A stretch of 64,000 bases of DNA from the NCBI GenBank assembly GCA_951799445.1, contig OX637297.1:3286001-3350000 (forward strand). Reading direction: 5' to 3'. The translations under genes were made by a program, and so were the position numbers. The notes below the pieces were generated by a model that worked only from the letters and a program-made list of their open reading frames with translations, ran no database searches and was not told the DNA's origin. Positions 6,028 to 61,504 of this stretch are shown piece by piece; the stretch's first letter is position 1, and each line of letters begins with the position of its first letter. Origin of the DNA: Pseudisothecium myosuroides (taxonomy: Eukaryota; Streptophyta; Bryopsida; Hypnales; Lembophyllaceae).

Positions 6028-6285
6028 CTACACAAAATAGTGAAACTAAATTGCCTTGACAATTAGGTTGCCGTACTTCCAGAAAATTACTTTACAAGAA
6101 ATTAAAATCAACAAATATTTCTACAAAACTTTTTATTTGTATATTATATGGAGGTTCACCAGTCCCAATTACAACAATACTTAATTCCGAAGTAATCTAT
6201 TCTTGTAGAGAAACAATAAATGTTTATATAGTGTAGACTGTCAAGAAATTTGTAATGGGCAACCTAATTTCACTATTTTGTGTAG
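6028..6285. mobile_element. Mutator-type MITE (258 bp)
   Basis: Terminal inverted repeats start CTACACAAAATAGTGAAA at the left end, with the same sequence on the opposite strand at the right end. The element is flanked by a 9-base target duplication, TAGGATGAA at 6019-6027 and TAGGGTGAA at 6286-6294, with one mismatch. A 9-base duplication is characteristic of Mutator-like elements. There is no coding capacity. Confidence 0.85.
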
Positions 6286-6294
6286 TAGGGTGAA

Positions 6295-7956
6295 GGTACT
6301 AGAGTTTAGGGCAACGTTTGGGCTTGGTGTGGTTCAGGGCCGGTTATCAATGGAGAAGGCGGGTATTCAGAACCGGTTACAAGTACGGGTTCAATCGTGG
6401 CCGGGCGGGTATCAACCGGATATCTGCGGGAGAGGGCTAGGATTTTGTAGATTCGTGGTTAGGGTTTGGCGCTCACTTTTGTCAGCATAATTTTCTCCTG
6501 TCTGTGCTTAGCGGTTCTTGAGATTGAGTTTTGGCTTGTCGTTTCTCCCTGTTTGCATGCAAGCCGAAGTTCTTGAGGAGCGTGGATTTCGTTCCATTCT
6601 AGAAACCTGCAGTGCGAGTGCGACGACGTAGGTTTTTTTTTTGTCACTTGCGAGTGCTTGTTAGCTGACGATTAAGCTTCTTCCTCGCGGTGACAGCCTG
6701 GTGCGTCGAAGCTTCTTCCTCGTGTTGACAGACTTGTGCGTCAAAGTTGCAGTGGGACGACGGAGCTTCTTCCTCGCGGTGACAGCTTGGTGAGGGGCTT
6801 CCCATCTTCATTTTTTTCCTCTTGTTTCCTCTTGTTTACTCTGTTTACTCTTGTTTACTCTTCTCTCCAGTACTTGCTAGTTTGTATTAGAGTTTGTTTT
6901 GGATGGAGGTTGTGGTGGCGGGAGGTTGAGCATGCATTCAGCAAGTTGTACCGTGTATTACATGAGTGGGGACGTGTTTCTAGAGTTCACTGCGATCTTC
7001 TTCATTTTGCTTTTCAGTCGTTGCAAATGTAAAATTGAGGTGTCTGATTGAGTCCACCAGCAGGTTCCAATGAGCCTTCGTGTGGCTGAGGTTTTCTTAC
7101 CCTGAATGTGGTGCTTCACTGATTGTGGGAGTTCCCAGTCAGTCATGACTTTAGAGCCGTGTTTACGACCTCATTTGAAGCGGTGTATTTTGGTTCCATT
7201 TTGCGATGACTAACTTTCTGTTTGCGGTTGTAGCCTGCAGTGACGACTATTGGATTTGTATCCGACCTTGGATCTCGTGAAGCCGGCTCGGGGGAAGAAG
7301 TATTGTGGAGTTTACGGTGAGTTTGTTCTCATCAATTGTTAATTGCTCTTGAATTCTGCTTTGCTTGATTGGCTTCTTCAAGATTGTTTGTCATTGTCCG
7401 TTGGAAATGCATTTTGGAATTCCAGAGTTTGCAGTTGGCTAAGTTTGTTGTTGAAAAGTATACGGTTCCTAGGGTTTCCACAGTTTTATGTTGCTGGAAT
7501 TGCTTGCAGTTAGTAGGTTTCATAAGGAATGTACGTGATTAGGGCTTGAGGGTTTAGTAAAGGCTGCATTCGAAGGCATTTCAGTTCTCATGTATGATAA
7601 TGCCATAGATCTGTGTGACTGTGGATTCTATTAGTACCAAAAGCTCTGAATTTGAGCCTGGTTTTGTTCTGTAGGTCAAAATGAAAACGTGAATGTAATA
7701 GTGGTGGTGCTTGAATTTTAAATTTTTGCCTACAGAAGGATTTGGGCATGTGCTTGGATTACGCAAGTTGTGGTTAGGATTCACATTCAGGATTGTGTTG
7801 GGGTTCTGGTTTGTAATGTCTGTAGGGTCTGGTTAGGGTTGGGGTTACTTTTGCTTCAAGTCTGTAGGGTCTGTGCAGGGTTTCTGTAGGGTTTGTGTCG
7901 ATACCCTTGTTCCCTGAACCCCCCCTGCTTCGAAGAGTGTAGCTCGAAGCACATTT
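6295..7956. other. GC-richer leader-like region with CCGG motifs and a short tandem repeat
   Basis: Composition shifts sharply from AT-rich to mixed. Around 6,330-6,425 there are several (A)ACCGG(T/A) motifs. At 6674, 6709 and 6761 the phrase AGCTTCTTCCTCG is repeated with a following GACAGC/GACAGA-TGGTG. A possible splice donor GTGAGT lies near 7,316. No long open frame is convincing. It resembles an untranslated leader or promoter, possibly of Element 1, but no transcript boundary can be fixed. Confidence 0.4.
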
Positions 7957-8944
7957 AGCTTGAGCCAAGCTAAATTTCAGTAACCTGATTTATGAAATTA
8001 GCTCGACCCGAGCTAAAATCAACAAAACCTGGCATGAAATAACAAAACATGCGTTAGCGGCCCTGAAGACACAATAAAATTGAACAAGGCTCGCCCATAT
8101 AATAGGCAAGAAACCCTAAAAATCAGCTCGAATCGAGCTAATTTGCAACAATGCAGCGCGCGAAGTAGCTAGGGAAGAGAACCACTTCAAAAAATAGAGC
8201 ACCACGAACAGAAAAGATATAAGAAACCACTCATTCAGCTCGACTCGAGCTAAAAAAATGACAAGATTATAAATAATACATAGTAAGAGAACCAAAATAA
8301 AACAGCTCGAATCGAGCTCACAGTACAATATTCTAAAATATAAACAAGATACAAATAAGAGAGAAGAAGTCACCTAAGTGCTAAACATAAAGCAAAACAA
8401 AAAAGAGCCAAACGAACAGATGCACGAGGAGGGACCCAGAAAGATTTAGCTCGATTCGAGCTAAAGAGAACAGATAACTTGAGTTAAGTAGAAAACACAA
8501 ACAAAACTAAGAAAAAAAACATAAATGACTAAATAAGAGGTCAACAAGTGGATATCAACCTCGATCAGCAAGTATAGCAGCAGAGCTCAACCTGTCAGCT
8601 TGACTCGAGCTACATACATGAGACGAGTAGAACATGAAAACAAAACGAGAACTGAATACGGAAGCTCGAATCGAGCTGAAAAGATAATATTCTCAGACAA
8701 AAACAGATACAGAAAAAAGGCCAAACCCGTAGCAAGCTGATAGCCAAGGTGAAAGCGAATATAGAAGCAGTCAGAGAGGTAGACATAAGTAGGGCAGGTA
8801 GGAAGAAGTCAGCTCGATTCGAGCTAACGGGACGGCAAGCTAGAAGCAAGTGCAGAACGAGGAGTGTGGCATTCAAGAAACTGGAAATTTATGGGGAACA
8901 ATGTGTGGCCGCTCTAAGGGAGGATATTCAACTCGAGTCGAGCT
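7957..8944. repeat. Palindrome cluster in Element 1 leader (10 copies)
   Basis: Copies of AGCTCGA-N-TCGAGCT or close variants lie at 7957, 8000, 8125, 8237, 8304, 8448, 8597, 8663, 8811 and 8930. The first and last are the most degenerate (AGCTTGAGCCAAGCT and AACTCGAGTCGAGCT). Spacing is irregular (43-149 bases), so this is not a tandem repeat. The central base varies (A, C, T). Perfect dyad symmetry suggests a binding site for a homodimer. Confidence 0.92.
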
Positions 8945-8985
8945 AACATTGACTATAAAGCTAAGCAATGTTCGTCATGCTGCAG
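8945..8985 (+). promoter_or_regulatory. Leader intron 3' end and acceptor before gene A start
   Basis: The last leader palindrome ends at 8944. A polypyrimidine-poor acceptor TGCTGCAG ends at 8985, two bases before the ATG at 8987. The matching place in Element 2 also has an acceptor (TTTAG) just upstream of its ATG, supporting a spliced leader in both. Confidence 0.5.
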
Positions 8986-10432
8986 AATGGAGAGGCAGGT
9001 CGAGAAACTCGTGCACTACTACAAGAAATCTGAGGTCCAGAGAGTTGAAGATGATGGGGAAGGAGATGACTTCCTCAATGATGGAGAGTACTGGGAGTTT
9101 GTGTTCTCAGAGAAGGTAGATAGCTGGACTCTCCTCATGATCCCATGCTTTGAGCAAATCTGCTTCGCCGTGAAGTACAAAGGGATGGACACCTACCTCC
9201 CTCTCTTGTATGATGAAAGAATAAAAGACGTTGTGGAAGACGTCTTCCCCACCATCAAGGTCCACTATATTACCACCTAGAATGACCTTCCTCCAGAAAA
9301 GCAGTACAACTTCACGCTGCACTTCGACTCCCAGCTGATTCCCTTCCACGTAACCCACTTCATGGAGTCCCTGGCGACGACATCGTTCCAGGATGAGATC
9401 AAGGAACTGGAGGAGAAGGTTAACGAGAAGTGCTTCCAGAAAACAAACGAAGAGCCTCTCACTGGTCGGAGGCTATGCACTAAAATCAGAGCTCTGTTCC
9501 AGGACTTCGCGGTCCTGAAAACTAAAATACAAATCGACCGTCAGAGCAAGGCTACCAGGAGCGTCTCATTGAACGCCGGAAGCCAAGGACCCAGTCAGGT
9601 GTCTATTGACAACCAATCCCCTGGGGAGTCGTCAAAGCGGGGAACGCGCAACTGACAGTCGACGACAACACCAAACCGTCCACTTGCAAAGAGCAATTTA
9701 GTGACAACGTCAGCGGTGGTACCAACTGAGAAAACTGGAGAGCACTCTGCTGTGGACAACATCAGTCAGGACATGAGTATAGTCCCAGAATCATTGCAGA
9801 CAAATCAAAACCCAGACTACGAGGAGTCCAATGAGGCGTACAAGAATTTCTGGAAAACCTGCGTAGATGTGTTTCTCTACAAGATTGAGAAGAAAGAGTT
9901 CACCATTGACAAGCTGATCCAGGCTCTGGCCTCTCTAAATATCCGAAGCAAGGAACAAACCATCATTGAGGGCATGATGCACTATCTCTGCAATATGCTG
10001 AACCACAGCAACCGGCAAACATTGTGCGTCATGCCAACGAAGAAGCCAACAAGGGAAGGTGACGACTCTTGGACCGAGATCAAGGACGGAGAGTTCTACA
10101 TCATTAACGGGCAACGCAGTGTCTAGGCCAGCAAGCTCATGGAGGACCCGAAGTTCAATATTGACCCGGCCACAGTGAAGGACTTGAGGACCTGGAATTG
10201 CTACATTGCATGGACAGAGGACAACGAGACACTTCGTTCTATTTCGGCCTACTTCAACAGAGTCAACCATTTCCAAGCTATTCAGTCGTTGTGGGCAACT
10301 AACGTACTGGGCGCCCGACATGTCTGGGAGGAGATGGGATCACCGCACAATCCGAAAGAGGACACAGAAGCCGGAGCTGTCACCAAAGCGAGGCGCACTA
10401 AAGCTGCATTTGAAAACAAGAAGAAGTGGACG
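8986..10432 (+). pseudogene. Element 1 gene A, exon 1
   Basis: Reading from the ATG at 8987, one frame runs 482 codons to the donor ACG|GTAAGTG. It is interrupted by TAG at 9278, TGA at 9653 and TAG at 10124, with no frameshift. I do not recognise a named domain. Homology to Element 2 is clear: WTEIKDGEFYIINGQRSV corresponds to FSEIKNGKFMIINDQHSV there, and a following segment with W...W(T/S)...NH...QS.W(A/G) also matches. The two proteins align across the stops, so the coding capacity once extended through them. The stops could come from C-to-T change of CAG and CGA codons, or TAG might be bypassed. A DNA-binding or structural role is only inferred from the palindromes. Confidence 0.7.
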
Positions 10433-10545
10433 GTAAGTGATTCACCTCGAGTCGAGCTGAACTACGCTATGCTTGCTATTGTGAAGTAGTTGTTCACTGC
10501 ACGGTCATTACCTTCTCGCTGATCAGCTCAAATTGAGCTAACAAG
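10433..10545 (+). other. Element 1 intron 1 with two palindromes
   Basis: The intron runs from GTAAGTG to AACAAG|GAT, 113 bases, phase 0. It contains palindromes at 10444-10458 and 10525-10539, the first 11 bases after the donor and the second 6 bases before the exon. Element 2 has an intron at the corresponding place that ends in the same AACAAG acceptor and also holds two palindromes. Confidence 0.75.
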
Positions 10546-11931
10546 GATCCTGACGTTGGTTGTCCGGTGTTGATGCAAGAATTCACTAAGGCCATGCAGA
10601 TGCGTTTCTCTATGATTGACGTTACAAAATCGCATCAGAAGTCCAAAGCCAAGGACTCAAAAGGCAACACCACCATCACAAATGAGATTAGCCTCATCAC
10701 TGCTCCTGTAGATGTGTTCAATCTCTGGAGCAAAATCATCTCTAGTGCTGCGCATGGCGAGCTCATTGATGCGGACACCTTGAAGAAGTTCAATGTCAGA
10801 TCGTCCTGGAAAACCGAGAACGGGATGCTAAACAAGGAATTCTTCAAGTTCTTCGGAAATCTCATGAATGACGACCTCACTATCTTGGCTAACCACATTT
10901 TATACAAAACGGGTGACAAGAGGATGTATCCTCAACCGAAGGTGACAATTAAGAAGACAACGTCAATTCTCGAAAGTTGTTACGCTTCGAAGGATTGGAT
11001 TGAGAGGCGCAAACGAAAGGCGTTCGTGAAGAAGGAGTTGAACAAGATTGATCCGACATTGGGTTTGCTGAACGCGGTGGGGGAGCCTGTAATGGAGAAG
11101 TGGAAGGACTATAAGAAGAAGTACAATGTCACATCTGTGACGATGAATGTACTCATGGAACGGCCGAGGGATGCCTTCTTCTCCGACGTGAAGCAGAAGA
11201 AATCCAAGAACAAGTCCACGGAAGAAATTTCGGACCAGGCTGCTGAATTCTTCAAAGTCTTCTTACGACAATGGAAGAATTTTGTCCTGCCATCGGCAAT
11301 GGCGCACTACGCGCCATACGACATCGCAAAAGACCAGCACGCTCCATGGCCAAGGGTTGTGTGGACAGTTGACAGCCTTGGAGATCTCGATCTCGGCATT
11401 ATCGACTTCCGGTACATTCCGGGGGTGCTTTCGAAGAAGGACGGGACAATTGCAATTCCTTACTTCAACACCGTCATATTCTCTTTGAGAGGGAAGCAGC
11501 AGCCTAAATTTGAGGACATCCCGACGTGGTTATTCATATGCGCAGACATGCAGGAGTAGACGCAGGTGATCGCTTTCGTTGAGAACAACAATGTCCTCAG
11601 CAAGTACAAGTGCACGTTCACGGACTACATACCAGCACAATACAAGCGGATGGGGGACATGGCCTCCGCCAAGGCGAAGTCACTCGACAAAGTGCTGTTG
11701 ACGTTTCTGACAAGTCCAGCGTGTACAAGGGGAGGCGACATTCCGGAGGTGTTTCTGGCTCCGGACAATGATACTTTCAATAAGCCCCGAGGGTACAACG
11801 AGTTGGAATTCCGTCTCTACAACACGGAGTTTTGCATGGAATTTTATCTGTGGGTGGTGAAGAAGTTCTGCTCTCCCGGAATGAGCGTATTCTCTGTCTT
11901 TGTAGGAAGAAAAGTCACTTGCGCAGCAGTG
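10546..11931 (+). pseudogene. Element 1 gene A, exon 2 (most conserved core)
   Basis: There are 462 codons in one frame, phase 0 at both ends, with one internal TAG at 11557. This is the best-conserved part against Element 2: WIERRKRKAFVKKEL corresponds to WVKRRKRKKVVLDEL, PKVTIKKT to PKVSMNKT, and MEFYLWVVKKF to MEFYIDILQTF. A strongly basic stretch follows the PKVTI block. No DDE, RT or helicase signature was found, so this is not a recognised transposase. A loosely similar pattern (P..(I/V)T(V/I)...(N/T)(T/S)I) occurs in the 30-kb gene, hinting at a wider family. The donor GTG|GTAAG at 11932 fixes the end. Confidence 0.75.
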
Positions 11932-12153
11932 GTAAGTTCCTTACAGCTCAATCAGCTCGAATCGAGCTGATGTATCACATCCATTTGTATTGTTTCCTTC
12001 TGCTGCGATAAGTGTGACTCCTGGATGAACTGATTCGTTATGGAAGGAATTAGCTCGACTCGACCTGAATCAACGACTGGTTTAGTTCGAATCGAGCTGA
12101 AGCTATCGTGTACTCTCCAAACTAATGCCCGGAGTGAATTTCTTAATGTGCAG
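11932..12153 (+). other. Element 1 intron 2 with three palindromes
   Basis: The intron is 222 bases from GTAAGT to TGTGCAG. Palindromes lie at 11954-11968, 12052-12066 (last bases degenerate) and 12084-12098. The corresponding Element 2 intron is 226 bases and also carries palindromes, so position, size and content are conserved. Confidence 0.8.
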
Positions 12154-13110
12154 ATGAGTTCAGTGAACGTCTGGGCGGCTGGAGTTACCAACGACACAGG
12201 GTTCTGGAATGATATTGCCCTGGCCGCCATGAAACTGGACAAGGCGGACTTTCTGGAGGGGGGGTATAAGGTGTAGGCTTCTGCGCGCAAGAAGCCTCCA
12301 GTGTCTCAATCGACTCCTTCGTCGTCGCGGAAGAGGAAGCAGTCACCCTAGGATTCGCCTTCCACTGGGCGGCGCGAGAAGGCACCAGTTGCAGAGCCCG
12401 AAGTCCTCTCTAACGATGAAGGCGACAAGCAGGACTACTATGTCCAGCAGGTGCTGGACGAGCAACTTCTGGTGGATGCCAGCACTTCGGTTCCTCCCAC
12501 TCCGACCGAACATCGGGGATCGTCGGCCTCAAGCGGTCACGTGCAAGAGGAGCAACCCTCAAGCACGCCTTCGTCTGCCGTCATGCCAAAGAAGAGAAAA
12601 TTATCTAAGCGGGACGAATACATGGAGTGGAGGTTCGTGGAGCTGGAGAAGAGACAAATGGGGCAATTCTAGTACCAGCATAACACGAGGATGGATAAAC
12701 TGCAGACGTACATCTTGGTGGACTCTGCAAACAACACCGATAAGCTGGACTCCATCATCAATCACTTGAGGGGTGCAAGACCAATCTCCTCATTTGAACC
12801 CCCGATGCTGAGGCCGCAGCTGCTGCTTGAAGGTCTGCCTCCCTTATCAGGCAATGTGGCTCCATTGGATCCACTGGGTCTCCCTGAGTTTGCTATCTCG
12901 GCACTCCCTTCGCAGGCTCCTCCTCCTCCCCCACTGCCCCCGCCATCATCAGCTGACGCGCAGGTGACTCCTGCCGACGCTCAAGCCATGCCAAGCCTTC
13001 CAGTCGCGGGAGGTGCTCAGCATCAGCTACCGGCCGAGCAGCCAACGCAGTTAGATCTGCAGAGTCCTGCGGTGCCTAGCCTGGACTTAGGCGCAGGTGC
13101 TCCTCAATAA
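12154..13110 (+). pseudogene. Element 1 gene A, exon 3 (nuclear-type C-terminal region)
   Basis: Starts right after TGCAG with ATGAGTTCAG and reads 318 codons to a TAA at 13108. There are TAG stops inside at 12274, 12349 and 12670. The first 40 residues match Element 2 (MKLDKADFL against DKLDYKDFL). Then come a basic Ser-rich spacer (SRKRKQSP), a classical SV40-like nuclear localisation motif PKKRK with following basic residues near 12,586, a predicted coiled coil (EYMEWRFVELEKRQM onward) and a Pro/Ala/Gln-rich tail. Nuclear location and self-association are reasonable inferences. The terminal stop is TAA rather than TAG. Confidence 0.7.
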
Positions 13111-13346
13111 TCACTGGATGTCACTTGTACAGTTTAGCTCGACTCGAGCTGATTTTTGCCATAGGTTGTATGTAGTTGTAGTCGTTTTGCAGAGACTACA
13201 ATCATTTTTCTAAAACGAAACTTCTAGTGGACTGAACCATGGAGTTCATACATTTTGCAGCTCATTCATGTATTTATATCTCATTTTATGAGGCTCTAAT
13301 ATAAGGGTTTTTTATGAATATTTCCTTGTACATTCTTGACATGCAG
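13111..13346 (+). other. Spacer or intron between gene A and the NIF exons
   Basis: Contains one perfect palindrome at 13136-13150, 26 bases after the gene A stop. Element 2 has a degenerate palindrome overlapping its gene A stop. A T-rich tract and ATGCAG acceptor end the interval. A donor CAG|GTGCTC just before the gene A stop would join the two reading units in frame, so alternative splicing into one long protein is possible. Confidence 0.5.
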
Positions 13347-13624
13347 GCACTGCAAATATTGTAGAATGTGTTTCTCCTCCCGTCCCTGAACTTGTGAATA
13401 CTACTGCTCAGCCTGTGCCTGGTCCGGTGGAAAGTGATCAAACTAATCTCATTGAAAGCAATGACCTCGTGTCCGTCCTTGAGTCTGGACCGTCCACATC
13501 TCTCACACTGGCGGCAGATGATGTTGTCATCTCAGATGCGGACCTACTGGAGATTCGCATTCCAGAGCCGGCCGTCGTGACGAAGGACGCTTCCGTGGAG
13601 ACTATAGAGGCGTCGCAGCAAAAG
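13347..13624 (+). CDS. Element 1 NIF gene, acidic linker exon
   Basis: Open frame from the ATGCAG acceptor to donor AAG|GTATAA, with no internal stop in the used frame. The roughly 92-residue segment is rich in Glu, Asp, Ser, Val and Pro and has no domain I recognise. Element 2 has an acidic linker exon at the same relative place. No upstream ATG for an independent NIF gene is obvious, so it may be spliced to gene A exon 3 or to an unseen 5' exon. Confidence 0.5.
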
Positions 13625-13799
13625 GTATAAATCATGCTGCTGATTTGGAACCTTCGAGGGTATTCTTTTTTTGTGTTCATTTTTATTTTAAGAATGATTT
13701 AGTCACCGCAAATATGAGCATCCCCGTCATTTTGCGTGAAGTTCCAAATGTGCCAGTACAGGGTAATAACTGGCTGCACATTTGTCTATTGTCTAGCAG
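13625..13799 (+). other. Element 1 intron before the HAD domain
   Basis: The intron is 175 bases, GTATAA to GTCTAGCAG, phase 0 on both sides. It contains no clear palindrome, unlike the gene A introns. Confidence 0.6.
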
Positions 13800-14519
13800 G
13801 AATCCGGTCCTTCTTGTAATGTAGGAGGAACTTCGGAGGCAGTTGATCTTCCATTGAAGTCCAGGGTGGTGGAGAAGTGGATCAACGTCGTCCTGGACCT
13901 CAATGGGATATTATGTATCTGTGAAGATTTGAAGTTTAACGGTTGGTCCAAACGCATCCCTGATGCCGTTCAGCCACACTCGGCTATCCATGCCGCCGTA
14001 GTGGGACCCAAGCTAGTTTACGTTCGCCCAGGATGTTCTGAGTTCCTATGTCAATTAGGCAGGATAGCTTCCATTTCTGTGTGGAGCTTGATGAAAAAGT
14101 CCACCAACGAAGAAGTGGCGAAGTATCTCTTCGACGGGCTGGATAGGCCTTTAGTGATTCTCAGACAAGACTCCTGTAAGACACTTAAGTGCAGAGATAG
14201 GACGGGAAGACCGTCAACGTACAGGGAGCTAGGCACGGAGAAGGAGTTGTTTCTTAAGAATCTAAATAACCTGTTCACTGGCATCCAGGGTAGATTCACT
14301 GCTGAGAATACAATCGCCGTGGACGACAGTCCAAATAAGCACATTCTCAACAACTCTAAGAACGTCATTCTGCCTGAAACGTGGACAAATAGGGGACATG
14401 GTCCAAAGGACAGGTTTCTCCTGGATGTCCTGCTGCCTTGGTTTCAGGGCCTTCACCTTGCTCGAGAGGAAGGACTGAAGGCGTTTAGGGGAACGGCGGT
14501 CGCTAGAATTGGTCGCTAG
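13800..14519 (+). CDS. Element 1 FCP1/NIF-like HAD-fold protein, probably catalytically altered
   Basis: The exon encodes about 240 residues to a TAG at 14517; the frame continues a further 25 codons to another TAG. The FCP1-homology (NLI-interacting factor) signatures are visible. Motif I is INVVLDLNGIL, with Asp at 13896 but Asn at 13902 where family members have the second Asp of DxDx(T/V). A Val-Tyr-x-RPG block follows, then a VWS segment and motif III VDDSP at 14319-14333, then a conserved Trp. The nucleophile is kept and the acid/base Asp is lost, as in Element 2, so a non-catalytic peptide or CTD-binding role is plausible. Host FCP1-like proteins dephosphorylate the RNA polymerase II tail. 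No frameshift is seen within the domain. Confidence 0.75.
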   Translation, partial: ESGPSCNVGGTSEAVDLPLKSRVVEKWINVVLDLNGILCICEDLKFNGWSKRIPDAVQPHSAIHAAVVGPKLVYVRPGCSEFLCQLGRIASISVWSLMKKSTNEEVAKYLFDGLDRPLVILRQDSCKTLKCRDRTGRPSTYRELGTEKELFLKNLNNLFTGIQGRFTAENTIAVDDSPNKHILNNSKNVILPETWTNRGHGPKDRFLLDVLLPWFQGLHLAREEGLKAFRGTAVARIGR

Positions 14520-14910
14520 ATGCTCTGCGACGAGAAAAACCATTGGGAATATGACAAGCTGATGGAGATTGTCACTGCGTTGCCATTTATTCGCTAGAGC
14601 TAGAGTGTGGGGTTTGTAGCTTAGGACAAGTGGATCTGCGGTTTAGTAGATTCTCATGTACTTTAGCTTGAATCGACCTGATTTGCACATTTTTGAACTG
14701 CCTGATGGATTGTTTTCTTCTTAATCCAGAAAATAAAAAAATTATTCTATGGTTTGGCGTGGTGAACTCTGTGCCTCAATTTAGCTCGGATCGAGCTGAT
14801 TTGTTTGTTGTTTTTGGCTACGTGATTTCTGCATGTACGGATGGCTGCTGCTTAGAGTTTATGGCGTTACCTGTGCTTTGTTAATATGTTTACCTGATAC
14901 TTGTTTTTAG
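14520..14910 (+). other. Element 1 3' spacer with two palindromes
   Basis: Variants AGCTTGAATCGACCT at 14665-14679 and AGCTCGGATCGAGCT at 14783-14797 are the last palindromes of Element 1. The interval ends in a T-rich acceptor-like tract TTGTTTTTAG at about 14,910. Confidence 0.7.
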
Positions 14911-15383
14911 ATTGTGCGCACATCAATTTCGCCTGATGAGGATGGTCATCTGCCATGCTCCGCGTCGGTGGACTCAATAATGGACTATGGGCAATACAAA
15001 ATCTTGAGCAGAGGAAACTTCCTCTACTCGGCGGCCACGGCAAACTTCACTATGGACTTCTCCTCCAGGCCCTTAGAAGATGGTGTGGTCAACAGCCCGC
15101 CAAGTGGAGTTTCGCGTCAACCGGCCTCTCGATCCCCTTCTCCGCCGAGGATCCAGGGACCCCTTGCTTCTCGATTGTCACCGGCTGTCCGACAAGGCGA
15201 CACAGAGAAGGCTTTACCAAGACGCTCCAGACACGTTACCTGCGTCGGTGTTGATGGCCACATTTCCGGTAGGGTCTCCTGCCTTACAAGGAGGGACTCC
15301 GTATCGTCGGAGAATACTTCCCCGTTGATGCGTCTCGTCTGGAGGTGTGCAAAAGTTCAAAGCACCTCATAGAGTCCAGCTAA
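14911..15383 (+). other. Possible 3' exon of Element 1, reading frame unresolved
   Basis: A GC-richer stretch follows the acceptor. One frame is open for about 150 codons to 15,372. Another frame starts at 14,955 and reads through a TGA at 15252 and a TAG to a TAA near 15,381; it gives a more protein-like composition (for example PYKEGLRIVGEYFPVDASRL). I recognise neither product. No counterpart was found beyond the NIF exon of Element 2. Confidence 0.3.
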
Positions 15384-18214
15384 GTGGATGCATTCCTCCA
15401 GTGCATGATATGTAGGACCGAAAGTTCCTAGAATTGCAGAGGCTTCAGAGCAGGCGGGAGTACAATGGGACTAATACTAGGTACACTCGGGGACCCAAGA
15501 TTCTAAAAGCGATGGAGATACAAAAGTGTAAATCGCACATGTAGGGTCTGTTCACATTGTAGATTGAGTGTCTATAGGTACATGCATGATAGCATTGTGT
15601 AGATATTATGTAGAACTCAAGTGCTAGAGTGAATCATACTCATGACAGTTATATACATTTCTTTGGTCTTTTAAGGATCGGAAAGGAATTGCCCTGCAAT
15701 TTTATATTGGTCAACGAAGTTTACTATAAATAGATGACCTTTTTATAATGAATGTTGTACTCTTGTCCATGTTTTCAGCAATCATTCCCTGTTGTTGGTA
15801 TTCTTTTCTTCTATTCTGATAGTTTTGATACATTGTTTGTCCATTATTTCTCTAAAAGTTAGCTCTCGCAACTCTCAGTTCACTGGAAAACCCTCATTTT
15901 AATGAATATAATGTTCTTGGGTGTTTTTGACAATTGTAATGAATGTTTTGTGTTTTTGAACACTTATTAAAATGCGTTTTGATTGTTGCATGTATCAAAT
16001 TTGATGTCAATTTTCATTGTCTATTAAAATATATATGATGAGATTTAAATAAAGATTTGATTGTTGGCATAGTTATCATTAAAAATTTCTACTTTTTAAT
16101 TGCCTTCAAATAATGTGAAACATTGTAGAAAGTTGACAACTTGTTATAAATTGGAATGTTTACAAGTTGGGAGTTCATAATAACAAATTTCATAATTTTT
16201 GGGCCTATAAAACATAAGTTTATGACCTTGATACACCAACATCTTCAAATTAAATATTTTAGTGAGTGTAATATGAAATGTCAATTAAATAATAAAGCGA
16301 TGAGAATTCCAATGATAAGAAACAATTGATGAAATTAAAAGATAGCCCAAAAGACATAATGTGAAATTTTTTTTTTATTAAAAGAGTGAAAATTGAATCA
16401 AAATGTGCATTTCAAAGGTCAAAACACCATTTACAAGCTAGGCTTATCCTTTCATGTGCTACGCTTACATTGGCCAAATCCCCTCAATCTATTGACTTTT
16501 TTGTCCAAGCACCCAACTACCTAGGCTTTGGGATTTAAAAAAAACAAAACAATAGCTTGTTATGTAAATCTAACTGCATATAAAGATGGCCAACTTGATT
16601 CTTCAAAGCATCACTTCAAGTGCGACTTCATTTAAATATTTTTAATAATAAAAAAAGCACTTCAAAAAACAAATTGATCACATTCTGGTCGTTCAGAAAG
16701 TTAAGGGTTAAGTTTGATCCTAATTTTTTATGTATGTTGCATATTTTTATGCCCAACATTCACCCAAAAATCCTTCATTATCGAACAAAACAAAATTCCT
16801 AAAGTTTATAAATACTATAGCGTGCCAAAAATTAAGTTAGATTTTCATTTATAATTACCTATAGGGTGCTTAAAATTAAGACCAAGTAGCTTTTTTTCTA
16901 CTAAAAGGGTCCTTTAAAATCATGATTACTAAGTAAATAGCCTCCAAACAAATAGGTGGTTAACGCACGTGGTTACAAAACATAAGGGGAAGTGACCTCC
17001 CCGAGTTGAGCAAATGAATTTTATGATTTTCAAATATATATTTTATATCCTCCACATTTGTACAAGTAGGCAACCTTGAATCTATTTTTAAAATGTAAAA
17101 GTGGTTTTAACTTCTTTTTTTTGGTTAAATTTCAATACCACAATGTCCTTCCAATTTCCAAATGCCTTATTTTTGGTTTATTTTAATCTTCTTTTCCTAT
17201 TTCTAAAAAATCCTAAATGCTCTTAGACAGTTTTTCTGAAACAAATTCTCGGATGTCAAATTCTAGTGATGTCCAATTAGTTATTGCAATTAAAGTTTTT
17301 GAAAAATGGTTGTAAGTGACTAAAATTTTGGGAAAATAAACTCAAATTTATGATAAATTAAAATTACCTACACCCACGGTCATAGGTCCTTCATCATTTT
17401 TTTCTATAAAAAATTCCCTACTCACAAGCTCACAGGCTCACACGCTAGCAACTCTAGTTACATGGACAACAAAACAAAGAAGCCAACATGATGGCCCAAG
17501 AATCAGCAACCTGTAGTTTTGGCCGGATTCAAAAATGCCCCCCTATTGAAACATACAATGAAAACACACATTAAAGCACACATTCAAGGACACATTCCAA
17601 ATGCTTTAGGATCATTCAATCAACTATAAAAATCTCTAGGAATGCATAGGTTGTCCAAGTAGAATTTTAGGTTTGCTGGTCAAAACAGATGAAGACATAC
17701 CTGAAAGCAAGCACTCAAACATACATTCATGTTGGAAAATACAAATGGGGCAAGGGAACACCCAACAAAATTTATACATGTGTGTATAATACAATTTAGA
17801 GTACAAAACTGGCCCCTTGGTCTTTCCTACTTCTTCAATGTTCTGCAAACGATTCCAAAAATGCTAAACTCAGTTCAAGGCCTATAATATGAAGGTCAGT
17901 GGCAAAAAGAAAACGCTCAAAAAACAAAACAAAACTAGGCTATTTTATATAGCCGTCACATACCTTGAATCCGCATTCTCAAAATTCCTCAAGTACCACG
18001 CTACGCAGGGGTCACCCAGACTTTTGTCAACGCACGCCAGTCTTCACCGATGCCAATCTAAACCTCCGAAGGTGCCCACCCACTAGACAGTATGTCCACC
18101 ACCGAAACTAATTCAGCATTGCTAAGCTCACACAAAGTAGTAAATCGAAGTCGATTGGCAATAGGCATATTCAGACGCCAAGACTTTGACAGCACTCCGA
18201 GGTTAGTATCAAAC
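15384..18214. other. AT-rich intergenic sequence
   Basis: No convincing gene, repeat or element end is visible. Short open frames (16,620-16,802, 17,636-17,848 and 17,889-18,086) lack motifs. Confidence 0.6.
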
Positions 18215-52837: not shown

Positions 52838-54149
52838 ACGACATTAAGGGTAGGTACTTGTGCTACTATAGTCTTTCCAAGATGGTCATCAAAATTCTTA
52901 GGCTAGGAGCATGTTCCATGGAGGGCCCATTGTAGGGCACGACTTGGCAGCCTTCACCCCCACAATTGTTGGAAGCTCATTTACATGTTCTCTTTTTTGT
53001 AGCATTGTGCCAACAATAATGATTTCACAAATGTCTCTATTTTTTTGTTCTACACCTACCAGAAAGTGGTCAATTTGCTGAGCGGAATTGCCCCACCTTA
53101 GATGTTGGCTACTAATTCAAGGTACTTTTTGCCTTTCAAAATCTATAGTAATTTCAAATTTGACGATAAAATTTTGGAAATTTTGCAGTGGCAACATTTT
53201 GTATCTTAAGGCCGTATTCATTAAAATGAAAAAAAATGCATAAATTGAGACAACTATACCCCATTTGGGGGGGCCTATTTTTAGAAAATAGTTGTTGAAG
53301 GTAAAGATAAATTAGGACTAATACCTGACCGAAATAGAAATTATAGAATCTTGATAAGGAAAAGGCACACAACATGCAAAGCCAAATACACAAGGATAAC
53401 ACGGATTGAGAAATGTTTGTCTATAAGAGATGCCAAAAAGTAAGTTGCATTATTGAAAAAAAGAAATTTACATTAAAGAGTAGGAATATTCTTCAGAACT
53501 CTTTCTTGTATATAAACAGAGAAATCTACTTCGCTTCGTTCATAATACTTTCCGTATTCTATTTATAAGAATGTCAATTCCATTAATAAGAATTACTATT
53601 CTATTTATACTAATCACATGGTTTCCTTAACACGTGTGATCTATCAAACCATGGCTTCAGTATTAAAATGAGATTTTTGCTGCCTCCAATGCTTTCTCTT
53701 TTGCCCATGCTCTCAAGATATCCTCGTGTCGAGAATGCTTGAGAAGTCCACTTCCATTCATGAAGTCGCCGCACGCCTCCAAAGACAATGACTTACTTGC
53801 CTTCACTCTTTGATTCTATATGCACCGAGGAATGTCAAAGTTCTTTAGAGATTTCAAAGGTCGAGGAGATATCTTTTTTTGCATCCTATTGACATTGTTT
53901 ATGTACACATGCCCATTTCCTAATTGGTAAGAGTTGGCAGAACGCCAGCTATCACGTAGAATCCAACGTCTGAAAAAAGTACCATTTGAGTTCATTGATC
54001 GGCTTCTAAGAGACTGTGAGGGGATTGACGAGGTAGTTTGTCTACCATAAATGAATCCAATTCGACCATTCTATTTCCATCTGCCGGAGTAGAATCCACT
54101 CGGTTCACATCCACGTACAGCTTCTTGTGCGGTGTAGGATAAACTCTAT
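52838..54149. other. Spacer without convincing genes
   Basis: AT-rich, with a minus-strand 82-codon frame at 53,154-53,402 lacking motifs. The 3' end of the pogo-like element is not resolved. Confidence 0.5.
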
Positions 54150-54359
54150 ATCCTCGACTCGAGCATACCAAAGTGGCAAGAAAAACGTCGATCGCAAAAC
54201 GCCATTACACAGTATCAACCCGGCAATTGAAACTAATATATTACAAGTTCAAAAATTTACAAAGCTAAAAAATTTGGCGTTGAGTTCATTTGAAAGTAGA
54301 TGTTCGAAAAGTTCGCGTCCCCTATTTACAAACACTATCCTTTCTAATCCTAGGGAAGA

Positions 54360-55212
54360 CTACTTGCTACTCTCTGGTCTAGGACTCTTGCAATCAATCA
54401 TGTAGTTCATTCCCCGAAGCTCAAATTGAGTCCCCATCTTCTTTGCAGACTCCCACATCCCTTGCAAAATATAAGAATGCAATTGCAAATTCGAAGGGAG
54501 CGGATCATGTCCTATCCAATTATTGTTCACATATTCAAGCAATTTTGTCAGACTACATTCTTCGTGCAAGCGTCGAAGCCAAGGAGCCAAGGAGCCAAGG
54601 AGCATGTCATCGTCCTCTTGACCATGGGTCCACGTTCTCAAGAAAATCGCATTCCCCCTTTCATTACACACACTCTTCTCGGGAGAGTCATCAATAAGAA
54701 GGGTATTGTTGGCGTGAAACGATGTCGTGCCACTGGGATTCGAGAACAATTCATCCTCTAAAACTTTGAAGAAAAGGTACTTGTTCTAATTGTCTAGGTG
54801 CATCAAAAATTTTCCCCTTAGCAATCTCAATCCTACCACACTACTCTTGTCCTAGTATATCAAAAGGTTCCTTGATTCCCTCAAACAGGTACCCAACAAC
54901 GTCCTCCATATTTTTCTTTACCATGGAGCTCCAGACAACAACTCGATTTGCGATAAGGGATAACTCATGTAGGAATTCCTTCACCCGTGGACGAGGGAAG
55001 ATGGCTTTCGAACCAACCATAATAGGTTTCTCTGCCGGAATTGATTTGCCCTTCCCTTTATAAGAACATAAGTCTCTGTAGAGGGACCTAGGCGTGCACT
55101 GATATGGAATTCGGTTTATGTCCAAAACGATGTTCAGCCATTTATGCCGCGATGGGGCCACTACTGCGGACACACCCCTAGGTAGAATGTCTCCGCCGCC
55201 CTCCGCTACTAC
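54360..55212 (-). pseudogene. Element 2 FCP1/NIF-like HAD-fold protein
   Basis: From the ATCAG acceptor the exon reads WLNIVLDINRIPYQ (motif I with Asn instead of the second Asp), FPRPRVKEFLHELS, VVVWSSMVKKN and EPFDILGQE, then TAG. After a one-base shift in an A/T run near 54,815, a further TAG follows LDN, then LFFKVLEDELF, TLLIDDSPEK (motif III) and a conserved Trp, ending at TAG near 54,360. All blocks correspond to Element 1. Loss of the second catalytic Asp in both copies suggests that the loss predates their divergence or was selected. Confidence 0.7.
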
Positions 55213-55759
55213 CTGATCATAGAAATACACCATAGAAAAGAAGTTACCTGAATGAATGCATAACAAGGTGAACAAGAAAGCGGGATAAAGCATTGAATGG
55301 CACTAATTGAATGCAGAACACCTCCAAAAATTGGTGGTTTCATTGTGAGCAGATGGTGCACACTTTCAATGAAATTGTGCTGGCCACAAAAAACATTAAG
55401 AAAACAAAATAATTAGGGGAAGCTGAAGGCATTTGCTGTAACCACGTATTTTATATAATGGTCAAAATATAATACATCCGTAGTGTATATATGTAATCTA
55501 TAGCCGGCGATCTATACAACTTAAAACTACGCGCAGTTTCAAATCTATTCTAAGTTAGAGTTGTAGTCAGTGAAGCAAGAAATGCCGACGCCACAAAATT
55601 ATGGAATGTCTGATCCCCCCTGTCAAACCAGAATGAATAGAAATAAGAGTCACTTCATCAGAAATGACAGGTTGATGGAAGTCACAGACTGCATCCACCA
55701 AGCGGTATTTCCTGGACTCATTAGTATTCATAAGGGTCAAAGGCTTCACGAGAGATTAC
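55213..55759 (-). other. Element 2 intron before the HAD domain
   Basis: The intron is 547 bases, GTAATC to ATGATCAG, longer than the matching 175-base intron of Element 1. No palindrome was seen. Confidence 0.5.
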
Positions 55760-56035
55760 CGTAGTCGCGATCTCTGCCTGATGGTGGTCGTCCTTATTCG
55801 TGGAAGGATCGCCTTGTCCTTTTGTCAACACCATCCCCTCTAGGTCATCCCCCTTCACCTCCTTGTAATCCACTAAGTCCTCCTCCTTCTCGTAATCCAC
55901 GTGCTCCTCTTCGACAAGTGGATTGTTGTACTCAAGAACTCGCTCCTCCTCTGCCTCTAAGGCCATAGGGCATCTCTCCACAAGATTATCCTTGACTCGA
56001 GGATGATCCTGAATCTCCTCAATATTTAGGATCAC
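55760..56035 (-). CDS. Element 2 acidic linker exon (approximate)
   Basis: The open frame is rich in Glu, Asp and Val, ending at donor ACG|GTAATC at 55,759, comparable to the acidic linker exon of Element 1. A palindrome (55988-56004) lies inside the open frame, so the exon may really start downstream of it. Confidence 0.4.
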
Positions 56036-56223
56036 TGGAGACTTGTAGGCGCTGTCTACAACAGGATCAATAGCATCCTTTCAGTTGGAGAGGAGGAAAG
56101 ACAGACAGGAGCAGTGATTTGTTGTTGGGATGCACATTCAGCAGGATCACGGACCGAGTTTTGAGACTACGGCTAAACATTGCCACCGGTGGCTGCACTG
56201 CCGATTGGTTGATCATCTTCAAC

Positions 56224-57015
56224 TCAAGGATCCTTTTGACTGGCGAACATTCGGTTGTACTCGGCCAATGTCTTTCTCATCTTCTCCATCTCGGCGTCTT
56301 TGCTCTCCATGTCCACTAAGGAGATAACCCGCTTCTCCCTTGCGGTGACATTGACCGCCTTAGCTTTCTTTTTTCCTCCCTTTTGCTTCCCACGAGAATT
56401 GGATGCATCTTTGACAACGTCGAGGAGAACCGCTACACTGGACATCTCTTCCACAACTAGCACCGCGGGGTTGGTTTTTGAATCGGATTGTTCACCGCTC
56501 ACATCCACGACACTAGGAACCTTCACACATCTAGAGGTGGGATTTGAAGCCGCAATGTCATGAGGCTCAGTGGAAAGACTTGGTGTATGTGCTTGAATCC
56601 CAAGCTCAAGCAGGGAGTCGTTCTCAGCTTCAGTGACATGGATTTCGAGAGCGTCATCTTCATCTCCAACGACCTCACTCAAGATCCGATGTCGCTTAAC
56701 ACGGTTGGACCCGAACTCGTTAATTTCCGTTACTCCAGGATCGGTTCCACCTCCAGAGACTTCTGACGTTGTTTCATCCTCGGATCCCTCACTGTTGTCA
56801 GTGCAACTCTCTTCCTCCTCCTCCTCCCTCGTTGGGCTCTCGACGGCTTTTTTTGGTGGTGGCTTGACATTTAGAGGCCTGATATAGAAGGGTTTGTAAG
56901 GGGAGTTGTCGTGCAGGAAGTCTTTGTAGTCTAGTTTGTCGGCCAGCATCGCAAACTCTCGATGTTTTGTGTTAAGAACATCGTTGGCAATCCCCCAATA
57001 ATGCAGTCCATACAT
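56224..57015 (-). CDS. Element 2 gene A, exon 3
   Basis: An intact 263-codon frame to a TGA at 56,224. The first 40 residues (YWGIANDVL, DKLDYKDFL) match Element 1 exon 3. Then come an acidic EEEEEESC block, a Ser/Thr/Val-rich spacer, a basic GKQKGGKKKAKA nuclear-type motif and a terminal coiled coil (AEMEKMRKTLAEYNRMF). The architecture matches Element 1, although most of the sequence has diverged. The stop is TGA, not TAG. Confidence 0.68.
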   Translation of the reverse strand: MYGLHYWGIANDVLNTKHREFAMLADKLDYKDFLHDNSPYKPFYIRPLNVKPPPKKAVESPTREEEEEESCTDNSEGSEDETTSEVSGGGTDPGVTEINEFGSNRVKRHRILSEVVGDEDDALEIHVTEAENDSLLELGIQAHTPSLSTEPHDIAASNPTSRCVKVPSVVDVSGEQSDSKTNPAVLVVEEMSSVAVLLDVVKDASNSRGKQKGGKKKAKAVNVTAREKRVISLVDMESKDAEMEKMRKTLAEYNRMFASQKDP

Positions 57016-57241
57016 CTGCAAGGTTGAACGAAGAAGTTAGAATCTAAACCTCTTGACTGGAAAACATTGGAGATATTAGAGATGTGTCAGTTATCCTCGA
57101 CACGAGGATGGCAAGACATCTGTAGGAACCCAAGTAGGGAAGCAAGAGAGGTGGAACCAAACAATTGTTGAAACCCAATTCTGAGAGAGGTGATAGATAT
57201 CATTGACTCAAGGATAAGGATAGAGTGGATTGGTAAGATAC
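57016..57241 (-). other. Element 2 intron 2 with two palindromes
   Basis: The intron is 226 bases, ending CTTGCAG|ATG as Element 1 intron 2 ends TGTGCAG|ATG. It holds ATCCTCGACACGAGGAT at 57093 and a degenerate copy at 57199. Confidence 0.8.
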
Positions 57242-58577
57242 CTTTGCTACCAGCATACACTTCAATCCCGCATATATGCCCACACAATTTTCTCCCGACC
57301 TGGCAAAAGTTTGCAAAATATCTATATAGAACTCCATCCGCAATTTGCTAGGTAAGCTCCTCCACTTGTGCTCGTTATTCTTTGTCATCTTTGGCTAGTA
57401 GTATTCGAGCCTCTCCGGAGTAGTATACTCCGTTTTCATCATGTTTTTCATTGACTCCACGTGCTCGTTTCCTTTCTTGAAGAGAAATAGGAGTGGCACT
57501 TCCGGATTATTGGCTCGCGTACTTATATTATTGAGACAAGTGGGACGTACAATGATACCATGCACTCAAATTCCTTAAACTCATCCGCGATGAAATCTGT
57601 GGCGGTTTTGGTATCCCAGTTATCTGTCACTACCCACATCTACACATTTAGAGTTGACATCGCCGGCTCCACGTTTTTCTTCATGGCCTTTAGAAATTGT
57701 AAAAGGGGTGCTGGTTTCTTGGGATTGTATTTTCCCTTCGGAGCCTCTTGAAGTTCCATGATCCCAAAGTTCAACGTCTTCTTGACATACTTCACAGCAG
57801 TACTCTTTGTTAGCGAAAACAAAACCATGTTGTGGTCCTGTATCTAGATCGACCTGAGCATAGACGGAGGTGGTACTTGGCTTCCAAGAAACTCTGCAAC
57901 ATGGGCAGGAGTTCCTTGAATTTATCCGAGAAGTCCTCCGCAAATCTGCCCTTCCTTTTGTTGGCCAGTCGCTTCGCTAGGAACAACTGCGGTATCTCGC
58001 TTAGCAACCAATCCCAGGTGGCTGAAGAGAACCTGTGCCTGCGCTTCCAATCCCGCCACTTCTCGTCAATGACGTTCAAGTATTTGTCTTTCTAATTGAG
58101 TGAGGGCTTCAGTTCCATTAGCTCATCCAGGACCACCTTCTTGCGTTTTCGGCGCTTTACCCACTCCGTGGCAAATGTATTGTTTGGGATCGGGTGCTTC
58201 GTCTTGTTCATTGAAACCTTGGGATAGGTCAAGGTTCGACCAGGCGTGTCGCCAAGCAAATGAGTTGCAAACACTTTGCAGTCCAAATCCGTAAAATGAT
58301 CCATGTGCTTGAAGAATTCCCGCTTTAGTCTATATGTCTTTGGGTTGAAAGTTTTTGCATCCCGAAATGGCTTACAAGTCATTGGGTCAATCAATTTGCC
58401 CTTGGAATGCTTGTTCAGGAATTCCGCCCACAGCCTATAAATGTCGTCTGGCAGCGTGACGATTTGGATTTCGTTTTTTAGGTCTTAGGGTCCCTTGACA
58501 TGAGACCCGTCCTTCTTTGGGTCGATGTTCTGGAATCGCTTGACAATCAAACTGAGGAATTTCTGCAGTGCCATAAT
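57242..58577 (-). pseudogene. Element 2 gene A, exon 2 (conserved core)
   Basis: Starts after AACAAG with LQKFLSLIVKRFQNID, then a TAA after KGP, the shared block WVKRRKRKKVVLDEL, a TAG after KPSLN, a frame shift near 57,850, a TAG after MSTLNV, another shift near 57,530, a TAG after RLEYY and the shared MEFYIDILQTF, ending at donor AAG|GTATCT. The order of blocks is that of Element 1 exon 2. A segment between about 57,530 and 57,600 is shorter than in Element 1. Confidence 0.65.
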
Positions 58578-58780
58578 CTTGTTAGTTTAGCTAATTTGAG
58601 AAATAGGTCAAAGCAAATCTGCGTATCCTCAACTCGAGGGTAAACAAGTAAGTAATTTCTTATGATGGATGGAAAACTAATGATTACTGAAGAACTGACT
58701 TTTAGCAATTAAACGTAAAATAGCTATCACGTTTGAAGTCTATCTTCGGGTCAAGGATCACGTTCTGAGGAGTATTATAC
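58578..58780 (-). other. Element 2 intron 1 with two palindromes
   Basis: The intron is 203 bases, ending AACAAG as in Element 1. Palindromes lie at 58742-58758 (degenerate) and 58625-58641. Confidence 0.72.
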
Positions 58781-60213
58781 CTGATACATTTCGAGGTCGG
58801 TGACAGAGTTGTTCATCCTCTTAGTGCCCTTGTTTGCCACATTCATCGGCCGCTTGAGATTAATCCAAGTGTTGCGGCAACTAATGATTTGGTTACCCCA
58901 CTTTGACTGTACGTGTTCAAGGTGGTTCGTGCTGTTCAGGAACTCCAAGATCCTTGTCAACTTCGCGGGGTTTAGCGACCAGACAAAGTTTGCCTCCCAC
59001 TTCTAAAGATCCTTCTTCCTTTGAGCACCACATCCCTCGATCTAAAATTCTTGCGAGACAATGACGCTGTGCTGGTCGTTTATGATCATGAACTTTCCAT
59101 TCTTGATCTCCGAGAAATTCTTGGGTGGCTGTGGAAGGAGATTGCCTTCTTTGTCAATGGGTGTCAGACACAATTTCTGACGCTGTGTTATGTCTAGTAA
59201 GCGGAGCAACCTTTTCCTCGTGGATATGAGGACGTTATTTTCAATATTTTGAATCACATATTGATCCCTAGCACAAACACACTTGTCGATATGCACTTCA
59301 TATGTTCTTGACTCGATAAGTAGCACGACTTGTGGATTTCCCAAAACACTCGCTGTTCTTCTGCAAATTTATCGTAATCGGGCACCTCCTGGGTTCCTTC
59401 TTCTTCCGCTGTGACGGTGGTCAGGGCTGAACCAAAACTTCTAGCTGCTCTTGGACGTGTGGCACTTGTATTCTTTTGACGCTTTGTGCTTGCTTTTCAG
59501 GTCCCGGATTCGATTTGCTTTCTTTTACTGCCAGCTGAAGGAATGTGCCCCTGCCTACTTGCTCCATTGACGTTCGACATCGTACCTGACTCCGAGTGGG
59601 GTGTGACATCAGTCTTGTTGCAGTCTCTATTCCTGCGTGATCCTCCATTGACTGACCTATCAACCCGGAGCGCGGCGTACCGGTCAAGAGTACCAAAGAT
59701 AGAGGCAATTTTTTTGGTGTTGACGCAGGCATTCTCTGGGTTCCAGGGCCAAAATTTGTCTGTGAACTCTTGTGCTACTGATCCTAAGTGGGTGTTTGCG
59801 ATGAACTCGAGAAACATCTCCATGTTAAATTGGCCGCATACCCCTCCTACTTTTGTTATGACAGAGTGCAGATGTTGAAGGTTTTCTCCTTTGTTGTCGA
59901 CCTGTTGCAGCACAATTGCAATGTACTATTCGTGGTGAATATCAATGAGTGACACCTTCTCGTCTAGGTTCCACTTCAGGAACATTGGACTCCCCTACAT
60001 TTGACGGCGTAGGAAGACATAGGTCTTTGCACGACTGATACCGTAGTTCCAAAACTCTACTACGTCTTTGAACTGCTAGAGTTCTCTATAGCTTGAGGCG
60101 AGGTCTGGGTGGATGAAAGGGTTTTCTTTGAAGGGTTCTCGAACGGCTAGAGAAAAGTGTTGTGTTGCCGAGTAGTCATACGCAGTTGCCAGTATCGTAC
60201 TCATTCTCGCGTC
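58781..60213 (-). pseudogene. Element 2 gene A, exon 1
   Basis: A TTTAG acceptor precedes the ATG at 60,204. The frame passes TAG stops after REL, RQM and HHE, then a TGA after ESGT, shifts frame near 59,345, and passes TAG after SQEF and KKDL before a donor CAG|GTATAA at 58,780. The region FSEIKNGKFMIINDQHSV (about 59,060-59,115) and the following NH...QS.WG segment match Element 1 exon 1. It has at least one frameshift, so it is more decayed than Element 1. Confidence 0.65.
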
Positions 60214-60275
60214 CTAAATGAAACAGAAACTTAGTTTCATGTCACCTTAGTTAGGACCTTTGATCTCCCTGTTCA

Positions 60276-60757
60276 ATCCTCAAGTCGAGGACCTCTATTC
60301 TATCTGCAGCTTACCCTTTATAATTATGTTTTCTGGAGAATCTCCTTGGTTTTAGTGTTTTATGTTGATTGGATATCTTCGACTCGAGGGTAGTTATTTA
60401 GTTCGTTGGTTGTTACCCTTGTGTCGACGATAGTTTGTTTATATTTTGGTATTTTCTTCAACTCGAGGCTAGATTCTACAATCAGAGAATTATTAAACCT
60501 TTTCTATTTCCTATTTCTCACACTATGATGGTCTAGATCTGGTCGTTATCCTCAACTCGAGGATATAATTTATTGTTGTTTTGTTTGGTGTGGTCATCTA
60601 TCCTTGAGTCGAGGATACAGATTGGAGGGTTCTGGGGCTTTTATTATTTTTATTCTGCGTTATTTAATCATATCGGAGTCGTCCAATAGGTTTTATTTTT
60701 GGTTACGTGTTTGAAACTTAACCTTGTCCCGAGGATAGCTATCCTTGACTCGAGGAT
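60276..60757. repeat. Palindrome cluster in Element 2 leader (8 copies)
   Basis: Eight copies or variants fall within 482 bases, immediately upstream of gene A on the minus strand, mirroring the leader cluster of Element 1. The best copies are ATCCTCAACTCGAGGAT at 60548 and ATCCTTGACTCGAGGAT at 60741. The 60415 copy is degenerate. Spacing is irregular. Confidence 0.9.
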
Positions 60758-61504
60758 GCGTACAATGATTTCATGAAACCCTAATTTTGTGAATGCAATG
60801 CTATTGTTTTTACTGGTTATTTAATGACGATTGCATCATACCTGGCATCGGCATTCTGAAAAAACAAAAAACACCCTAAACCCTAAATCTATGCAATCTA
60901 AAGTGTGAACCGACTAATTTTCACAGTGTTATACAATCCTTTCTACATTATGGATTGCTAAGAGAAGGAAAATTCTCACCTGCAGGTTCAGTGGCTAGAA
61001 ACCTCCAACTACGTAAACCTTGATCCAACCACGTCTTCTTCAATGTAAAATCTCCCCCACCTGCTCTTGGAACTGAGACAATTGACAACAAACAAGTCTG
61101 TGTGAATTGCAGGAGGGCAAAAGACATGAATTCTACAAACATATTGTCTGCCTTGACCTACAGCTTCAAAGTAACACCTAAACCCTAAATTAAAGGAGAT
61201 TACAAACACTGGAAATAATTGCAATGTCAATCCATAGAACAAAATGGAAACTGACAAATTCGATTTTGTAAGAAATCAAATTCCATGAAACGAATATTGA
61301 ACAGGAAATCTCATACAAAATTCTAAACACAATTATATGAAGAAGATGATAAAGTCATACATTGCAGCTATTCTGCAAATCTGAAGGAATTAGGTCATGC
61401 GGGGACGTTACCTGAAGATTTTCTTAAATGCTGGTTCCGTATATGAAGCTTGATTTTCAATCAAAAATGCAGCTTAAGAGAAGGATGACGACGACCAGTA
61501 CAAA
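60758..61504 (-). other. Probable upstream part of the Element 2 leader
   Basis: Contains ACACCCTAAACCCTAAAT near 60,870 and no open frame of note. The transcription start cannot be placed. Confidence 0.35.

Follow-up and report, generated by a model that had tools for sequence, protein, structure and literature searches.

The 64,000-nucleotide stretch of Pseudisothecium myosuroides DNA analysed here (contig OX637297.1, positions 3,286,001 to 3,350,000 of the forward strand; hereafter the window) holds two related mobile elements, Element 1 and Element 2. Each carries a three-exon gene for a candidate DNA-reading protein (gene A), a neighbouring gene for a phosphatase (gene B), and an array of short palindromes in the leader and introns of gene A. 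The two gene A products are homologous, at ~29% identity. Judged from the sequences, each main lineage of these elements has its own version of the palindromic tag, matching its own version of the candidate DNA-reading protein. The features of Element 2 are as follows (window coordinates).

60275..60762: leader, seven TATCCTCGANTCGAGGATA-type palindromes, core starts 60279, 60378, 60457, 60551, 60603, 60725 (weak) and 60744
58775..60204, minus strand: gene A exon 1, ParB/Srx-like region, with stops and one frame change; 53% identity to homologue P0121
58624..58763: gene A intron 1, two palindromes, core starts 58628 and 58745
57245..58590, minus strand: gene A exon 2, helical region and methyltransferase-like domain, broken by frame changes
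57092..57220: gene A intron 2, two palindromes, core starts 57096 and 57202
56224..57036, minus strand: gene A exon 3, low-complexity tail
56214..56232: palindrome at the gene A stop
55987..56005: palindrome of the region between genes A and B, within a short open frame, hand-registered at 55991
54507..55143, minus strand: gene B, FCP1/NIF phosphatase domain (PF03031)
53719..54167: two palindromes downstream of gene B, core starts 53723 and 54153

Element 1 is laid out in a similar way on the opposite strand.

1..15918, plus strand: window part of the Element 1-type repeat, by blockwise match to the copy at C1:9021550-9038907
8123..8946: leader palindromes TYAGCTCGANTCGAGCTRA, core starts 8127 to 8932, with two further ones at 7959 and 8002
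8987..10432, plus strand: gene A exon 1, in-frame TAG at 9278 and 10124, TGA at 9653
10442..10541: intron 1 palindromes, 10446 and 10527
10546..11931, plus strand: gene A exon 2, in-frame TAG at 11557
11952..12100: intron 2 palindromes, 11956, 12054 and 12086
12154..13110, plus strand: gene A exon 3, ending in TAA
13134..13152: palindrome directly past the gene A stop, in the spacer between genes A and B
13797..14516, plus strand: gene B, FCP1/NIF phosphatase domain (E 4e-15)

Palindrome arrays of the two elements

An earlier note on this DNA had credited Element 2 with about 15 copies of a palindrome of its own, sharing a core with that of Element 1 but differing in its flanks. The array is real: at up to three mismatches, ATCCTCGANTCGAGGAT has 13 sites in the window, compared with a mean of 0.20 and a maximum of 2 in shuffled sequence, and 12 of the 13 fall within 54150-60757. 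The clean form of the motif, by contrast, did not hold, as the 64,000 nt contain no exact copy of ATCCTCGANTCGAGGAT. Registration by hand, which left out near-core rows lacking flank or symmetry (for example 54420, 54942, 59307 and 60092, and in Element 1 12860 and 15334), also gave a total of 15, with the predicted pair in each intron and the site at the gene A stop, but with seven rather than eight copies in the leader, one of these weak (60725). Element 2 has a single exact copy of the 11-base core CTCGANTCGAG, and Element 1 has ten. Many of the Element 2 departures are TCGA to TTGA or TCAA changes, matching C-to-T change at CpG, and others lie off CpG.

The contrast in flanks stands out clearly in the hand-picked sites. 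The outer flank reads TC in 23 of 30 Element 2 half-sites, never AG, and otherwise in seven; in Element 1 it reads AG in 34 of 36, never TC, and otherwise in two. The consensus half-sites are TATC-CTCGA for Element 2 and TYAG-CTCGA for Element 1. No tandem array extends over the leader of either element.

Arm classes and the gene A lineages

The 388-Mb genome to which the window belongs contains a large family of gene A copies. Searches returned 113 matches with P0121 as query and 93 with exon 1 of an intact relative (L001, described below), and after collapsing by hand there are at least 85 exon-1 loci of the Element 2 clade and at least 93 of the Element 1 superclade, some without internal stops. 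Exact ATCCTCGANTCGAGGAT occurs 53 times genome-wide (reversed control, 1) and CTCGANTCGAG 1266 times (reversed control, 118); of the 53, 50 exact Element 2-type sites were listed, 29 of which have a gene A of the Element 2 clade no more than 20 kb away, and one is close to a copy of the Element 1 superclade. On the window contig (C11), gene A matches of the two superclades reach densities of 1.72 and 1.01 per Mb, against 0.06-0.40 on C1-C10, and by eye the C11 copies often contain stops; C11 may be a non-recombining or sex chromosome.

We fetched 20 loci from each superclade, picked by gene A alone, each with ~1.2 kb of leader and 0.35 kb past exon 1. Palindromes were found upstream of exon 1 in all 40 and just after exon 1 in 36. 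Exon 1 makes up 48.7% of this sequence but holds only one of the 398 sites, and the motifs are enriched in the non-coding parts of the elements. In some lineages the leader copies appear to be tandem, with a spacing of ~67 bp in L036 and of 21-bp multiples in L060.

For comparison with the gene A tree, a consensus half-site was derived for each of 49 loci by a palindrome scan assuming no motif, with 2 to 17 copies per sampled stretch (median 9). The set comprised the 40 sampled loci, the two window elements, the intact relatives L001 and L002, and five loci from C1 taken from stretches picked for their palindromes; another six stretches of this kind were excluded because they lacked gene A. 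On the Element 1 side the half-sites fall into TYAG-CTCGA, TYAG-GTCGA, TCAC-CTCGA, TYAA-CTCGA and, at one locus with three sites, TCAG-CGCGG, and on the Element 2 side they read TAT[CAT] (TAC in L057), then C, T or G, then TCG[AG]. The TCAC class (L034-L037, L041, L042) has a lopsided palindrome repeated in a single orientation, unlike the symmetric classes, an example being TCACCTTGATTCGAGGTGA in L036, read along gene A. Because other lineages have GTCGA or TTCGA arms, the shared core is shorter than the earlier note had it and shrinks to about TCGR-N-YCGA, while the divergence of the flanks is upheld.

On a maximum-likelihood tree of the 49 exon 1 proteins, the four outer-flank classes need three changes, the minimum, compared with a mean of 22.4 after shuffling, which indicates that the outer flanks track gene A. 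Six finer classes likewise need the minimum, five (shuffled mean 24.9), and under neither scheme did any of 200 label shuffles reach the observed count. As near-copies help such a test, motif and protein distances were also compared among 19 representatives below 80% identity, where they are correlated (Mantel r 0.62, p 0.0001), as they are among the nine representatives of the Element 1 superclade (r 0.31, p 0.011). When the six class patterns were searched at up to three mismatches, no locus carried the type of the opposite superclade.

A scan of bacterial and archaeal genomes also turned up two contigs in a cyanobacterial metagenome-assembled genome (MAG), L001 (CADCWO010000269) and L002 (CADCWO010000243), whose gene A copies have open exons. 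As these copies are intron-bearing, the contigs are probably eukaryotic contamination of the MAG. Each has eight exact or near-exact palindromes, all of them outside exons and, by splice-like borders seen by eye, intronic. Between L001 and L002 the exons are 78-82% identical. Counting gaps as differences, and with additional palindromes present in L002, identical columns number 25/27 within the palindrome and 45/101 outside it in intron 1, and 26/27 and 49/186 in intron 2; in the intron between genes A and B they number 61/81 and 186/480. The palindromes are far more alike than the intron around them, and therefore in this pair the palindromes have been kept and the intron has not.

Predicted proteins, linked genes and element extent

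The relatives of gene A listed under an organism's name are all proteins of the moss Physcomitrium patens, from a search that retained three of 5710 candidates; a wider search gave 304 proteins at E≤1 among 8000 candidates, of which 120 were listed. In the P. patens models P0002 and P0003, gene A and the FCP1/NIF phosphatase domain are joined on one protein, the latter corresponding to gene B of the window, where A and B may form one product or two. A weak match to the gene B phosphatase domain at window 33352-33528 (E 0.09) is possibly a relic of another element.

Gene A has no Pfam match above cut-off. It models as a ParB/Srx-like domain followed by one that resembles amino-methyltransferases but has degenerate motifs. 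Residues 282-412 of exon 1 have a predicted ParB/Srx N-domain fold, with ParB, KorB and Noc as nearest folds, and the C-terminal half of exon 2 has a predicted beta-class or MT-A70-type fold, resembling CcrM, MTA1 and METTL3-METTL14. Unlike in those methyltransferases, and with both motifs placed by eye, the catalytic DPPY is replaced by DFRx or DLRx (DFRN in L001, DFRY in Element 1, DLRE in P. patens) and by ELQE in Element 2, and the S-adenosylmethionine-binding FxGxG is replaced in the copies inspected by [FYW]xGxK (YAGSK in L001, FVGRK in Element 1, WGGGK in P. patens, YAGLK in Element 2). With both signature motifs degenerate, gene A resembles a methylase that has lost its activity and been retained for DNA binding, a parallel to METTL14, which is a non-catalytic relative of the methyltransferases.

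Element 1-type copies carry a further gene. In the copy L007 a divergent, transposase-like open frame of 961 aa contains DUF7869 (PF25273, E 2.5e-39), its sole Pfam match at E≤0.1, with no Mutator-like element (MULE) partner domain matched at that threshold; DDE-like motifs are visible by eye. A second cluster of TYAG-type palindromes lies just 5' of the DUF7869 gene in L007 and in the C1 copy, and likewise in Element 1. An element of the Element 2 type on C1 has TATC palindromes at gene A and again ~11.5 kb upstream, where the cluster adjoins an open frame that by eye resembles the start of that transposase-like gene.

The blockwise match between Element 1 and the C1 copy spans about 22 kb, beginning ~6.2 kb left of the window and ending at 15918. 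Arrays of a 177-bp tandem (satellite) repeat at window 767-1293 and 2438-4163 are part of the Element 1-type repeat and are found again in its C1 copy. No terminal inverted repeats were seen at the Element 1-type element, whose 5' end is undefined. The 3' end (window 15871-15921) is common to the TYAA-class element L014:1065-1115 over 51 bp (86%), and ~7.1 kb left of the window (-7135) it is present again as a 34-bp direct copy, which may be where a neighbouring element ends. An array of TTAA/TTAT/TCAA-type palindromes at C11:3270369-3275664 (window -15631 to -10336) probably represents a third element that lies close to Elements 1 and 2 and belongs to a different class. Also within the window are a short inverted-repeat element resembling a miniature inverted-repeat transposable element (6027-6286; 29-bp arms, 90%, 202 bp apart) and, by eye, open frames like those of a Copia-type retrotransposon (46551-47640).

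Readings of the palindromes

We suggest, leaning modestly to this side, that the palindromes are element-private tags read as dyads by an element-encoded protein, most likely the gene A product, and that the reader may serve anti-silencing, though repression or transposition could also be the outcome. Gene A, as a DNA binder resembling a dead methylase, would bind the palindromes at the leaders and introns of its element's own genes, namely gene A itself and, in Element 1-type elements, the divergent DUF7869 gene, and would thereby switch element transcription; in the favoured version it would counter silencing, and the target of the linked FCP1-type phosphatase would be the transcription machinery. 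Every main lineage of gene A would have shifted to its own arm sequence and so act on its own kin, and the lineages may not recognise one another's tags. A dimeric, element-specific reader is favoured because many copies have changed jointly on both arms, avoid exons, and are kept in a diverging intron pair. Put more boldly, and at somewhat less than even confidence, this could be a superfamily of large DNA transposons of mosses with its own self-recognition code, made up of a bacterial-type ParB plus dead-methylase reader, a link to a C-terminal domain (CTD)-type phosphatase and a dyad re-lettered on both arms in many copies by each main lineage, with a VANC-independent origin of anti-silencing and at least four to six mutually blind codes within a single genome.

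Several observations weigh against the proposal of an element-specific reader. Linked descent alone predicts that motifs follow the gene tree, and the tree program warns of long branches at L040, L017 and L057. Within the Element 2 superclade (10 representatives) motif and protein distances are uncorrelated (r 0.00, p 0.47), so that the co-evolution of reader and tag put forward in the earlier note fits the main classes, whose flanks are not random with respect to gene A, but not the interior of this superclade. The arm position adjoining TCGR is mixed inside several elements, L014 and L045 mix TTAA with TTAT, and L015, a stretch without gene A, has odd mixed sites. Since leader copies appear tandem in some lineages, L036 among them, slippage could have carried a changed arm from copy to copy with no reader involved, although copies in introns and in the transposase leader lie far apart. 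As to the protein, a Foldseek search with exon 1 gave no match at E≤0.001 (best 6e-3), and the exon 2 model is weak (mean pLDDT, the predicted local distance difference test, 54.7), its best Z of 9.0 being little above the usual background.

The DUF7869 transposase could be the reader instead. In that case the palindromes would be its binding sites, comparable to repeats found internally or subterminally in other DNA transposons, and gene A would have a different job. This seems unlikely to us, even though the transposase-like frame lies in the same Element 1-type element, bears the same tags in its leader and would also diverge along with its element. The sites cluster in gene leaders and introns and not at the one end that could be defined (the last Element 1 site is at 14785, the shared 3' end at 15918), an argument from distance that is itself weak, as the other end is undefined.

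We consider it improbable that the palindromes are read by an activating or silencing regulator of the host and that the arm classes are drift with the element lineages. Linked descent would yield the same tree pattern, and the many Element 2 departures at CpG fit host methylation; a single host factor, however, would not favour at least four arm classes within a single genome, each with both arms altered in the 2 to 17 copies of a sampled stretch (median 9). There is very little probability in a partition or clustering system like that of ParB and parS, in which gene A would load at the palindromes and spread along or bridge DNA. The nearest predicted folds are ParB, KorB and Noc, whose DNA sites are palindromic, but what we take to be the arginine box of CTP (cytidine triphosphate) binding, GxRRxxA in ParB, reads INGQHSVAAS at that place in gene A, and the sites are spread over the element's genes and do not form one centromere-like site. 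Gene A also differs from these proteins in the methyltransferase-like domain that follows and in belonging to a eukaryotic mobile element. Least probable of all is that the palindromes work at the RNA level by forming hairpins in spliced leaders and introns, since the odd-centred palindrome would leave a three-base loop and the Element 2 C-to-T changes hit either arm, even if nearly all sites lie in leaders or introns that are probably transcribed, and the two-sided changes resemble stem covariation.

The best reading, by analogy, is that the element-specific reader and its tags form a self-recognition system like that of VANC in Arabidopsis, built from different proteins. In the VANDAL elements, introns of VANC21 and VANB21 and the region 5' of VANA21 contain the motifs, which are not the same for VANC21 and VANC6 (PMC5735166, PMC10398659). 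The VANC system shares with the moss elements an element-encoded protein, motifs packed into the introns and upstream parts of that element, and a motif that differs between related elements (here the arm classes); VANC motifs have also spread partly as tandem repeats, to which the ~67-bp spacing of L036 of the TCAC class may be a parallel. VANC motifs are short and in the same orientation and anti-silencing is demonstrated, whereas the moss motifs are dyads, the moss gene A combines ParB/Srx-like and methyltransferase-like parts beside a phosphatase, its partner is DUF7869, and its anti-silencing role is conjectural. As neither the proteins nor the dyad form of the site has its match in VANC, the moss system would be VANC-like in its working but not a member of that group.

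These elements provide a natural series of readers and tags with several arm classes in one genome. Such a series allows the joint change of a DNA-reading protein and its site to be studied directly, and makes it possible to ask whether a mobile element benefits when its relatives cannot read it. The series may indicate a second, unrelated case of anti-silencing in plants.

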